Assembly (NCBI GenBank): GCA_001799485.1
Contig: MGTO01000003.1
Coordinates: forward strand, 1 to 39,689
From: Desulfuromonadales bacterium GWC2_61_20
GTDB taxonomy: Bacteria; Desulfobacterota; Desulfuromonadia; Desulfuromonadales; UBA2197
DNA length: 39,689 nucleotides
Reading direction: 5' to 3'
Positions 13,101 through 36,996 of the stretch are shown in pieces. Made by a program: the position numbers and the translations under genes. Each line of letters starts with the position of its first letter. The stretch's first letter is position 1. The notes below the pieces were generated by a model. That model made no database searches and was not told the DNA's origin. It was given only the letters and a program-made list of their open reading frames with translations.

Positions 13101-13649
13101 TTACTTGAGCAGCGCCTTGACCTTTTCGAAACCGAGGTTGTAGGCCTTTTTGTTGAGGTCGAGGAAGGCCTCGGGGACGCGAGCCAGAACCGCTTTCTCG
13201 CCGGCCTCGCGGGAAACCGCGTCGGTGAGGGCGATCATCGCGCCGAGGGCCACGACGTTGGCGACGATCTCGCGGCCAATCTCATCCTTGGCAGTGCGCA
13301 TGATCGGCATTTTGTAAACCTTGAAGTCGCCTTTCGGCTCGTTCTTGACGAAGTCGGAATCAATGAGGAGGACGCCCCCCTTTTTGATGCCGTTGGCATA
13401 CTTGTCGGCCGATTCCTGAGTCATTGCCAGGCAAGCATCGACGACGGTAGCCTTGGGATAGTCGATGGGGCTATCGGAGATGATAACCTCAGATTTAGAG
13501 GCGCCGCCACGAGCTTCGGGGCCGTAACTCTGAGATTGGACGGCGTGTTTTCCCTCAATGATGGCAGCCGCCTCGGCAAGGATGATGCCGGCGGTGATCA
13601 GGCCCTGGCCGCCGGCGCCGGAGAAGCGAATCTCGAATCGTTTGGACAT
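13101..13649 (-). CDS. korC: 2-oxoacid:ferredoxin oxidoreductase gamma subunit (2-oxoglutarate, KorC)
   Basis: RFSGAGGQGLITAGIILAEAA, SQSYGPEARGGASKSEVIIS. Confidence 0.88.
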   Translation of the reverse strand: MSKRFEIRFSGAGGQGLITAGIILAEAAAIIEGKHAVQSQSYGPEARGGASKSEVIISDSPIDYPKATVVDACLAMTQESADKYANGIKKGGVLLIDSDFVKNEPKGDFKVYKMPIMRTAKDEIGREIVANVVALGAMIALTDAVSREAGEKAVLARVPEAFLDLNKKAYNLGFEKVKALLK

Positions 13650-13667
13650 GGATAAAGATCTCCTTGA

Positions 13668-14486
13668 TTATTTGGCGCCGGATGCCTTGGCGATGACCTT
13701 GGCGTACTGCTCGCAGTACTCGGGCTTGTCCTCCTTGTAGAGAACGCCGGTGAGTACTTTCCCCTCAAGCTGCTCGGCGGTCATCTTGCCGGCGGCGGCG
13801 ACGGGAACCGCGATGTCCTTGAGCCGTTTCATCATGTCGATGACGCTGCGGAACTTGTTGCGACGGCCGTACGTGGTCGGGCAGTCGTCAAGGACCTCGA
13901 TAATTGCCATGCCTTTGTGCTTGATCCCCTCGGCGATGAGCTTGTCGATCTGGGTGGCATGGAAGGCGGTGGTGCGGGCGACAAAGGTGGCGCCGGCGCC
14001 GATGGCCAGTTTGCTGATATCGAAGGTCGGATCAGGGTTGCCGTAGGGAGTGGTCGAAGCTTTGTCGCCGGTCGGAGTGCAGGGGGAAAACTGCCCGCCG
14101 GTCATGCCGTAGATCAAGTTGTTCATGATGACATAGGTCATGTCGATGTTGCGGCGGCAGGCATGGATGAAATGATTGCCGCCAATGGCGGTGCCGTCGC
14201 CGTCGCCGCCCATAACGATGACGTTCATCTCAGGTTTGGCCATCTTGACGCCGGTGGCGAAGGCGGCGGCGCGGCCGTGAGCGGTGTGCAGGGTGCAGAA
14301 GTCGAGGTAGCCGGGAAGACGACTGGCGCAACCGATACCGGAGACAAGGGCGGTGTTGTTCTTGTCCAGACCGCAGCTGTCGATGGCGCGGATCAGCCCC
14401 TTCATGACGATGCCATGGCCGCAGCCGGGACACCAGATGTGCGGGAGCTTGCCCGGACGGATATATTTTTCGTAATCGTAAGCCAT
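13668..14486 (-). CDS. korB: 2-oxoglutarate ferredoxin oxidoreductase beta subunit
   Basis: TPP-binding: PHIWCPGCGHGIVMKGL, GIGCASRLPGYLDFCTLHTAHGRAAAFATG, GGDGDGTAIGGNH. Confidence 0.9.
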   Translation of the reverse strand: MAYDYEKYIRPGKLPHIWCPGCGHGIVMKGLIRAIDSCGLDKNNTALVSGIGCASRLPGYLDFCTLHTAHGRAAAFATGVKMAKPEMNVIVMGGDGDGTAIGGNHFIHACRRNIDMTYVIMNNLIYGMTGGQFSPCTPTGDKASTTPYGNPDPTFDISKLAIGAGATFVARTTAFHATQIDKLIAEGIKHKGMAIIEVLDDCPTTYGRRNKFRSVIDMMKRLKDIAVPVAAAGKMTAEQLEGKVLTGVLYKEDKPEYCEQYAKVIAKASGAK

Positions 14487-14488
14487 GG

Positions 14489-15637
14489 TTACTTGACCTC
14501 CTTGACCTGGGCAATGATCTGGCCGGGGTTGATCGGCTCACCGTCGACACGGCCGATACTGATGACGGGGCAGGCGCCCTTGACCACGCGCTCGACTTCA
14601 AGATTCATCTGGCCGAGGTTGAGTTCGGGGACGATGATGGCCTTGACCTGTTTACCGAGAGCGGCGATGCGCTTCTCCGGGAAAGGCCAGAGGGTGATGG
14701 GGCGGAAGAGGCCAACCTTGATCCCTTCCTTGCGCAGCTCGTTGACTGCATAGCGAGCCGAGCGCGAGGTGGAGCCGTAGGCAAAAAGGAGGATCGTGGC
14801 GTCGTCTGTCAGGTACTCTTCGTATTTTTCAATGTCGACACGGGCGACTTCACCTTCGACCTTGCGGATCTGGCGGCGTTCTTCGGCGTCGACATATTCT
14901 GCTTTGGTCGTCGGGAAGCCGTCCTGGGCCTTGTTCAGCCCCGTAACATGATAACGGTAACCAGTGCCGTAGGCAGCCAACGGTGGTACATCGCCAAAAG
15001 AGGTGTCATACGGTTTGTACTTGTCGGGGCCGACGGTCGGTTTGGCGCGATTGATGATTTCAAGATCGCCCGGCTCGGGGAACTCGATACGCTCACGCAT
15101 ATGGCCAACAATTTCGTCATAAACCACCTGCACCGGCATGCGATATTTCTCGGCAAGATTGAAGGCACGCACGGTTTCGGTGAAGATTTCCTGGACCGAA
15201 GCCGGGGCCAGGGCGATAGTCGCGTGATCGCCGTGAGTGCCCCATTTGGCCTGCATGACGTCGGACTGGCCGGGGCCGGTCGGCATGCCGGTCGAGGGGC
15301 CGCCACGCATGACGCTGATGATAACGCAGGGAACCTCGGCGATGCAGGCGTAGCCGATGAGCTCCTGCTTGAGGGAAATCCCCGGTCCCGAGGAGGCGGT
15401 CAGCGCCTTGGCCCCGGTCAGGGATGCGCCGATAATCGAGGCCATGGCGCCGATCTCGTCTTCCATCTGGATAAATTTGCCGCCGAATTTAGGGAGTTCG
15501 TTGGAGAGAACTTCCGCAACTTCGGTGGAGGGGGTGATGGGGTAACCGCCGAAGAAATTACATCCAGCGTAAAGGGCGCCGTGAGCGCATGCCTCGTTCC
15601 CCTGCAACAGAGCAACTTTCTTAGCCACGTTAGCCAA
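14489..15637 (-). CDS. korA: 2-oxoglutarate ferredoxin oxidoreductase alpha subunit
   Basis: GYPITPSTEVAEVLSNELPKFGGKFIQMEDEIGAMASIIGASLTGAKALTASSGPGISL. Confidence 0.92.
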   Translation of the reverse strand: MANVAKKVALLQGNEACAHGALYAGCNFFGGYPITPSTEVAEVLSNELPKFGGKFIQMEDEIGAMASIIGASLTGAKALTASSGPGISLKQELIGYACIAEVPCVIISVMRGGPSTGMPTGPGQSDVMQAKWGTHGDHATIALAPASVQEIFTETVRAFNLAEKYRMPVQVVYDEIVGHMRERIEFPEPGDLEIINRAKPTVGPDKYKPYDTSFGDVPPLAAYGTGYRYHVTGLNKAQDGFPTTKAEYVDAEERRQIRKVEGEVARVDIEKYEEYLTDDATILLFAYGSTSRSARYAVNELRKEGIKVGLFRPITLWPFPEKRIAALGKQVKAIIVPELNLGQMNLEVERVVKGACPVISIGRVDGEPINPGQIIAQVKEVK

Positions 15638-15652
15638 CCTCCTGTCGGTGAA

Positions 15653-15844
15653 TTAATCTACGTAAACCTTGATGGCAAAGTCAGGACAGCGCAGTTCGCA
15701 CTGCATGCACTTGATGCAATCCTGCAGCCGCACGACCTTGGCCAGGAAGCCGTCCATCTCGAGGACGTTCTTGGGACAGAACTCGACGCAGATACTGCAT
15801 CCCTTACAATACTTTTCGATGACCTCTATTCTTGTACCGCTCAT
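15653..15844 (-). CDS. korD: 4Fe-4S ferredoxin subunit of 2-oxoglutarate ferredoxin oxidoreductase
   Basis: Two 4Fe-4S motifs: CKGCSICVEFCP and CIKCMQCELRCP. Confidence 0.9.
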   Translation of the reverse strand: MSGTRIEVIEKYCKGCSICVEFCPKNVLEMDGFLAKVVRLQDCIKCMQCELRCPDFAIKVYVD

Positions 15845-16105: not shown

Positions 16106-19396
<3,291 letters not shown>

Positions 19397-19473: not shown

Positions 19474-19507
19474 TGTATACAGTATACAGGGCCGCGGGGG
19501 CTGTCAA
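19474..19507 (-). promoter_or_regulatory. Predicted icd promoter (TTGACA-N15-TATACT) overlapped by 15-bp palindrome TGTATAC-A-GTATACA
   Basis: Perfect palindrome at 19474..19488; TGTCAA at 19502..19507 is the -35 on the minus strand. Confidence 0.6.
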
Positions 19508-32351: not shown

Positions 32352-34127
<1,776 letters not shown>

Positions 34128-34296: not shown

Positions 34297-34331
34297 TTGA
34301 CATGACGCCGAAAAATCGTATACAGTATGCA
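34297..34331 (+). promoter_or_regulatory. Predicted acnB promoter (TTGACA-N16-TATACA) overlapped by CGTATAC-A-GTATGCA, near-copy of the icd palindrome
   Basis: TTGACA 34297..34302, TATACA 34319..34324; 13/15 match to the icd-upstream palindrome. Confidence 0.6.
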
Positions 34332-34461: not shown

Positions 34462-36996
34462 ATGATCGACGCCTATCTGATGCACGAGAAAGAGCGCAAT
34501 GCCCAGGGAATACCGGCGCTGCCGCTCAATGCCGAACAGACCCGCGAACTCTGCAAGCTGCTGCAGAACCCCCCGGCCGGCAAGGACGCTTTTTTGCTGA
34601 ACCTGCTCAAGGAGCGCATCTCCCCAGGCGTCGACCCGGCGGCCGAGGTCAAGGCCGACTTTCTGGCCAAGATTCTCACCGGTGCCGCCAAGTCGAAGCT
34701 CGTGTCCAAAAAAGATGCCGTGCAGATCCTCGGCACCATGCTCGGCGGCTACAACGTCGCGCCTTTGGTCGCCGCCCTGAAGGATAAGGAACTCGCCGAC
34801 GATGCAGCCAAGGCCCTCTCCGGCATGACCCTGGTCTACGGCGGCTTCGACGAAGTCGCCGCTCTCGCCAGCGCCGGCAACGCCGCCGCCAAGAAGGTCC
34901 TCAAGTCGTGGGCCGACGCCGAGTGGTTCACCAACCGCAAAGGGGTTCCCGACACCATCAAGGTCAAGGTCTACAAGGTCGACGGCGAGATCAACACCGA
35001 CGACTTCTCCCCCGCCGGCGACGCCTGGAGCCGCCCCGACATCCCGCTGCACGCCCTGGCCATGGGCAAGACCCGCTTCAAGGACGGCAACGCCACCATC
35101 GCCCAGTTCCGTAAGGAGGGCTTCCAGGTCGCCTTCGTCGGCGATGTCGTCGGCACCGGTTCCTCGCGCAAGTCGGCCTGCAACAGCGTCCTCTGGGCCA
35201 TCGGCAACGACATCCCCTGCGTCCCCAACAAGAAGACCGCCGGCGTCATCATCGGCGGCGTCATCGCCCCGATCTTCTTCAACACCGCCCAGGACTCCGG
35301 CGCCCTGCCGCTCAAGGCCGACGTCACGGCGATGAAGACCGGCGACGTCATCGTCATCAACGCCAAGAAGGGTGAGATCACCGACGAGAAGGGCAAAGTC
35401 CTCTCCAAGCTGACCCTTGCCCCCAACACCCTCGCCGACGAGTTCCGCGCCGGCGGCCGCATTCCCCTCATCATCGGCCGCGCCGTCACCGAGCGCGCCC
35501 GCAAGGCCCTCGGCATGGGTCCGACCACGGTCTTCACCCTCCCCGACAATCCGAAAGTCAAGGCCAAGCAGGGCTTCTCCCTGGCGCAGAAGATGGTCGG
35601 CAAGGCCTGCGGCGTCAAGGGCATCCTCCCCGGCACCGCCTGCGAGCCGAAGATGACCACCGTCGGGTCCCAGGACACCACCGGGCCGATGACCGCCGAC
35701 GAGTTGACCGAACTCGCCTGCCTCAAGTTTCTCTCGCCGATGTTCATGCAGTCCTTCTGCCACACCGCCGCCTATCCCAAGCCGGCGGACGTGAAGATGC
35801 ACAAGAACCTGCCCGGCTTCATCGCCGCCCGTTCCGGCGTCGCCCTGCGCCCCGGCGATGGTGTCATCCACTCCTGGCTCAACCGCCTCCTCCTCCCCGA
35901 CACCGTCGGTACCGGCGGCGACTCCCACACTCGTTTCCCCATCGGCATCTCCTTCCCGGCCGGTTCCGGCCTCGTCGCCTTCGCCGGCGCCATGGGCTTC
36001 ATGCCGCTGGACATGCCGGAGTCGGTGCTGGTCCGTTTCAAGGGCAAGTTTAACCCCGGCATCACCCTGCGTGACGCGGTCAATGCCATCCCCTACTGGG
36101 CGATCAAGCAGGGGCTGCTCACCGTGCCGAAGAAGAACAAGGTCAACATCTTCAACGGCCGTATCCTTGAAATGGAAGGGCTGCCTGAGCTCTCCGTCGA
36201 GCAGGCCTTCGAGCTGACCGACGCCGCTGCCGAGCGCTCGGCGGCAGCCGGTTGCATCCAGCTCTCCGAGAAGAGCGTCGCCACCTACCTGCGCTCCAAC
36301 ATCGCGCTGATGAAGAAGATGATCGCCGAGGGTTATTCGGACAAGAACACCCTGAAAAAACGCATCAAGGATGTCGAGAAGTGGCTGAAGAAACCGACCC
36401 TGCTCAGCGCCGACAAGAACGCCGAGTACGCGGCGGTCATCGAGATCAACCTCGCCGACATCAAGGAGCCGATCCTCGCCTGCCCCAACGACCCGGACGA
36501 CGTCAAGCTCCTCTCCGAAGTCGCCGGCACGCCGATCCAGGACGTCTTCCTCGGCTCGTGCATGACCAACATCGGCCACTTCCGCGCCGCCGCCGAGATC
36601 TGGCGCGGGCAGAAGTTCAACCCCGCCGTGCGTACCTGGATCTGCCCGCCGACCCGCATGGATCAGCAGCAGCTCAAGGACGAGGCGATCTTCTCGGTCT
36701 ACAGCGCCATGGGCGCCCGCATCGAGATCGCCGGCTGCTCCCTGTGCATGGGCAACCAGGCCCGCGTGCCGGACGGGGTCAACATGTACTCGACCAGTAC
36801 CCGTAACTTCGACGATCGCATCGGCGACGGCGCAAAGGTCTACCTCGGCTCCGCCGAACTCGGCGCGGTGACCGTCAACCTCGGTAAGCTCCCGACCCCG
36901 GCCGAGTACCTCGCGGTCTACAAGGAGAAGGTCGCGCCGAAGGCGGTCAAGATCTACAAGTATCTGCAGTTCGACGAGATGGACGGCTACAAGTAA
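34462..36996 (+). CDS. acnB: Bifunctional aconitate hydratase 2/2-methylisocitrate dehydratase
   Basis: 844 aa; [79 protein letters not shown]. Confidence 0.96.

Follow-up and report, generated by a model that had tools for sequence, protein, structure and literature searches.

VanR-type GntR/FCD repressors exert local control over catabolic genes, and many FCD effector domains carry a four-residue metal site composed of one Asp and three His. FadR, which belongs to the GntR superfamily without sharing the FCD domain, acts both as activator and as repressor. PmiR of Pseudomonas aeruginosa is, according to a title cited in PMC13086498 (Cui et al., 2022), a GntR/FCD sensor of 2-methylisocitrate. 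In Geobacter sulfurreducens, the known repressor HgtR has gltA, atpG (F0 b' subunit) and nuoA among its targets (PMC7726332), and its gene, GSU3364, has a predicted RpoN promoter and a gene for an enhancer-binding protein (EBP) upstream (PMC2725144). HgtR is the sole global transcription factor for acetate oxidation named in the literature we could read, and it is acetate oxidation via the TCA cycle that supplies the metal reduction and current production of Geobacter and Desulfuromonas relatives. Here we consider a palindrome in front of acnB of Desulfuromonadales bacterium GWC2_61_20, which comparison across genomes makes very likely to be the operator of an autoregulated GntR/FCD factor acting over an acetate-oxidation regulon.

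The window, by which we mean the whole stretch of 39,689 nucleotides that was analysed, carries acnB on the plus strand (34462..36996, beginning with ATG at 34462), encoding an aconitate hydratase B of 844 aa (TIGR00117 equivalog, 1373 bits). Its promoter consists of a TTGACA -35 element (34297..34302, plus strand) and, after N16, a TATACA -10 element (34319..34324, plus strand); a separation of N16-17 is kept in the orthologous promoters. The -10 lies within the left half of the candidate operator CGTATACAGTATGCA (34317..34331, plus strand), a 15-bp palindrome with a 1-nt centre and two mismatches to TGTATACNGTATACA. Compared with the icd copy, TGTATACAGTATACA, it has the same 1-nt centre and differs at positions 1 and 13. 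The earlier note had thus described correctly, in sequence and in coordinates, a 13/15 copy of the icd palindrome over the -10 of TTGACA-N16-TATACA, and the “equivalent position” it assigned to the two copies holds to within one base, the operator beginning 14 nt after the end of the -35 at acnB and 13 nt after it at icd. Directly 5' of the acnB promoter lies cheB, a chemotaxis methylesterase gene (32654-33922).

The icd operator TGTATACTGTATACA (19474..19488, minus strand) is a perfect palindrome, kept 5' of icd in most of the regulator-bearing relatives, and it follows a TTGACA -35 element (19502..19507, minus strand) by the same 13 nt that is found in most orthologous icd promoters. The gene itself (17150..19378, minus strand) encodes a monomeric NADP-dependent isocitrate dehydrogenase of 742 aa (TIGR00178 equivalog), and mdh, for malate dehydrogenase (16106..17059, minus strand; TIGR01763 equivalog), lies 90 nt downstream and is probably part of the icd operon. 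After a gap of about 260 nt come the genes of a 2-oxoglutarate:ferredoxin oxidoreductase, korD, korA, korB and korC (13101..15844, minus strand; korD 15653..15844, korA/B/C 13101..15637), which possibly form one transcription unit with icd-mdh, co-transcription here being deduced from gene arrangement. The earlier note saw no site in front of mdh or korD; this is right, and is to be expected if both genes are in the icd operon.

Allowing up to three mismatches to TGTATACNGTATGCA, the window gave five matches, counted strand by strand, where shuffles led us to expect 0.63; at up to two mismatches only icd and acnB have sites. The only other matching place, 3173, lies within the 5' end of the bioW coding sequence and was discarded as noise. 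Over the whole genome, a draft that is 79% complete, seven sites were found at up to two mismatches and none with the reversed-motif control, while at up to three mismatches the 16 sites equalled the 17 of the control, and sites with three mismatches were for this reason left out. The seven precede icd, acnB, gltA (with dusB divergent), sdhC, nuoA, sfrB (the head of an sfrBA-like NADPH oxidoreductase operon) and a GntR/FCD regulator gene, several of these names coming from reading of the translations and from tblastn to orthologs rather than from family models. The gltA and sdh promoters, which the earlier note had singled out for inspection, thus both carry the site, the latter at sdhC. In Geomonas edaphica all eight sites precede genes of the same kind (icd, gltA, sdhC, regulator, nuoA, an ato-type CoA-transferase, sfrB and acnB), and ATP synthase operons (atpX, atpI), por and other genes join the set in Geobacter sp. 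AOG1, Geothermobacter and Desulfuromusa. Across the genomes of these relatives about 25 sites, mostly with two mismatches, are without such a gene and may be chance occurrences. By this comparative evidence, the site would be common to the promoters of most TCA cycle enzymes, and of the respiratory enzymes fed by the cycle, in the Desulfuromonadales/Geobacter group. The proposal that acnB and icd share a regulator is accordingly well supported as far as sequence can support it, but the set is far larger than the two consecutive steps for which it was made.

The regulator gene (G000:C147:4527-5234), whose operator lies 31 nt upstream of its start, is one of only two intact-looking GntR-domain genes in the genome and the only one of them with a site. 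Its product, P0001, has an N-terminal GntR winged helix-turn-helix (PF00392, residues 13-74, 70.5 bits against a cut-off of 27) and a C-terminal FCD effector domain (PF07729, residues 84-203, 92.3 bits against 24.3), which is helical in the predicted model (mean pLDDT 88). No NCBIfam equivalog model scored above its own cut-off with this protein, the best being TIGR03338 at 131 against 271.5 bits. Among 39 orthologs, nearly all residues of the recognition-helix region, R48-E59, are invariant. The alignment also shows H135, H139 and H183 in 39 of 39, and the putative FCD metal site is altered, with His at the expected Asp and Thr or Asn at the fourth position (205); these changes (L014:4524-5234; alignment A1 positions 135, 139, 183 and 205) are invariant or nearly so. 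At a contig edge of the window genome (G000:C42:3-338) a stretch with an internal stop matches part of the regulator at 64% identity and is possibly a decayed or divergent copy.

The palindrome TGTATACNGTATACA occurs within 250 nt upstream of all 80 named regulator orthologs from Desulfuromonadales and the Geobacter group, perfect in 75 and with one mismatch in five; in 250 nt of the orthologs' coding sequence, taken as control, the best match has 5-7 mismatches. Because the palindrome precedes the regulator's own gene, the regulator is probably autoregulated, as is often so in the GntR/FCD subfamily, whose operators are short palindromes. These promoters are sigma-70-like, the gap between TTGACA and the operator being exactly 5 nt in 61 of the 80 and, when one mismatch to TTGACA is allowed, in 69; a sigma-54-like (-24/-12) element was found in the 250 nt upstream of none of them. 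A search at E <= 1e-20 detected the regulator in 120 of the 141 genomes of the order of Geobacter sp. AOG1; a few of these matches are weak and may be paralogs. The AOG1 gene has kch upstream and adjoins selA-ispD-ispF(-glnS). GSU0018, a GntR gene listed in PMC6520446, was considered through synteny as a candidate counterpart in G. sulfurreducens, the AOG1 ortholog having selA-ispD-ispF-glnS beside it.

Regulator and site excess co-occur among 136 genomes of the window's order: with a threshold of at least four sites above control, set by us, and with counts uncorrected for shared ancestry, an excess was found in 101 of 102 regulator-positive genomes and in two of the 17 regulator-less genomes that are at least 90% complete, the other 15 being without it. 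Where completeness is below 90%, genomes without the regulator often still have the sites, as would be expected if the regulator gene fell in a gap. Phylogenetic footprinting, one of the checks suggested for the original observation, gave the same picture, the motif being conserved in both the acnB and the icd promoters and lost where the regulator is lost. The acnB operator is in the same place in all 32 promoters of site-bearing lineages (31 from genomes with the regulator and one from G101), 30 of them identical to the imperfect CGTATACAGTATGCA, and it is present in none of the acnB promoters of 16 regulator-less genomes, where the best match has 4-6 mismatches. In one of these from the window's own family (G131), TTGACA and TATACA remain at N17 and AAGTGCG stands in place of GTATGCA, which tells the promoter apart from the operator and favours TATACA as the -10. 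An imperfect operator kept verbatim, and decayed in a regulator-less sister genome, neatly shows an operator being maintained for the sake of its regulator. In a first set of icd promoters, the TTGACA-N13-operator arrangement was found in 11 of 11, one of them counted through a 12-14 nt variant, and most promoters of a second set have it too; in a regulator-less sister genus the icd operator has decayed to 2, 2 and 4 mismatches, with the -35 and the spacing kept.

The correspondence has its exceptions. One genome (G034) has the regulator and the acnB site and lacks the icd site, and monomeric icd is absent from the tested members of one family (f18). In family f13, two genomes (G101, G102) carry operators at icd, gltA, nuoA, sdhC and glyQ, and G101 also at acnB; no regulator ortholog was detected in either, nor does a site precede any of their FCD genes. 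The FCD proteins of this family, which share 25-28% identity with the regulator (44% over one short stretch) and whose genes are without the site, were rejected as the regulator.

We propose that P0001 would bind TGTATACNGTATACA-type sites as a dimer. The regulon in the window genome would comprise gltA, acnB, icd (probably together with mdh-kor), sdhC, nuoA and sfrB, to which relatives would add ato, two ATP synthase operons, por and others. Because the left half of the acnB operator contains the -10, the bound dimer should block RNA polymerase there, so that repression would come about by promoter occlusion. The operators at acnB, icd and the regulator gene overlap the -10 or the spacer, and that of sfrB directly follows a TTGATT-N18-TA(A/T)TTA-like promoter; overlapping or abutting the core promoter in all four cases, they have repressor geometry, and on this arrangement we consider repression at acnB and icd likely. 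A metabolite lodged in the FCD domain would then release or strengthen the repression. This ligand might be a TCA-type organic acid, and a tricarboxylate is no more than a reasonable guess by analogy, since the closest solved relative, PmiR, is called a sensor of 2-methylisocitrate in the title of its paper.

Other readings of the site need to be weighed. A/T-rich palindromes might arise by chance at -10 regions, TATA-like hexamers being self-similar, and the numbers lend this some colour: base composition alone predicts about 2.7 sites at up to two mismatches in the genome, and there is no excess over control at up to three. The single acnB copy is by itself weak evidence, and match quality cannot defend it; it is position and conservation that make it convincing. 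What chance does not account for is that the imperfect acnB site is kept verbatim, including the right half that no -10 requires, that it is absent in regulator-less genomes, and that all seven sites are located where they are. We consider a chance origin extremely improbable, the footprinting having ruled it out. More room is left for a dual regulator, which would repress acnB, icd, sfrB and its own gene, and activate gltA, nuoA, some sdhC and ato from operators placed 7-12 nt ahead of the -35. The operator of gltA, nuoA and some sdhC indeed ends just upstream of TTGACA, where activators sit, which is not simple occlusion; in 10 Desulfuromonadales-side genomes the gltA operator is separated from TTGACA by 7-9 nt, in 11 genomes the nuoA operator by 9 or 11 nt, and FadR offers a precedent in the same superfamily. 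Against it, the gltA and nuoA operators of Geobacter AOG1 and Geomonas have no TTGACA at that place, and repression is also possible from an upstream site, so that we hold dual action to be possible and somewhat unlikely.

Of the candidates named in the earlier note, GntR or HgtR-like proteins, the regulator gene agrees with the GntR type and not with HgtR. That HgtR of Geobacter sulfurreducens might nevertheless bind the site, either by itself or competing with the GntR protein, is brought to mind by its targets gltA, atpG and nuoA, all of which have the palindrome in Geobacter sp. AOG1 and through which HgtR, too, regulates central metabolism. However, the site precedes the GntR gene in every one of the 80 orthologs and co-occurs with it across genomes, and the RpoN promoter and EBP neighbour that belong to HgtR are not seen at the GntR gene, which has kch upstream in AOG1. 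We regard binding by HgtR as improbable. The regulator is probably not HgtR, being set apart by the published description of HgtR rather than by sequence or site, and we probably have before us two distinct proteins whose target genes overlap. A lineage-wide scheme that joins several of these elements would make a tricarboxylate-reading GntR/FCD protein the autoregulated master regulator of acetate oxidation that sets the entire TCA cycle, complex I, the SfrAB-like enzyme, which oxidises NADPH, and ATP synthase in concert, repressing from the -10 at acnB and icd, activating from upstream of the -35 at gltA and nuoA, and sharing operators with HgtR in Geobacter; taken as a whole, we find this scheme rather unlikely. 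Our preferred reading stays with an autoregulated GntR/FCD factor that acts at the acnB palindrome.

Set against the described systems, such a factor has its closest solved sequence in PmiR (PDB 7xp0, 7xp1; phmmer 2e-30, profile 6e-37), whose fold, too, ranks with the best matches (Foldseek 1e-10, 34% identity). The two are alike in combining GntR and FCD domains and in acting next to citrate-like chemistry, but they share only about a third of their residues and the regulon here is different and much wider. The VanR-type GntR/FCD protein Atu1419 (PDB 6z74, 6za0, 6za3), whose structures contain palindromic DNA and also fortuitous citrate, and TM0439 (3fms) have the same fold, but VanR-type proteins are not known as TCA-cycle repressors and the metal-site residues differ in the regulator here. 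FadR of E. coli (PDB 1hw1) is similar as a GntR-superfamily protein in which one factor serves many central-metabolism genes, and differs in effector domain and operator, being only a distant fold match. Literature searches on the motif, and on GntR combined with either Geobacter or TCA genes, found no relevant paper in the mostly open-access literature covered, and the regulator appears to be a new, hitherto undescribed protein of a known family whose regulon in central metabolism is unusually broad. With a conserved regulator, an operator and a gene list at hand, a direct genetic test is possible in culturable species.

Two minor observations concern the operators of relatives. In seven genomes from several families (loci L260, L288, L341, L346, L359, L378 and L390), an operator lies 18-226 nt upstream of glyQ, which encodes glycyl-tRNA synthetase alpha and is not a TCA gene. 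Some operators have a third half-site with a 7-nt period (GTATAC-N-GTATAC-N-GTAT), amounting to two overlapping palindromes, as at L277:2501-2522 and upstream of nuoA in L361, L374, L385, L393 and L398.
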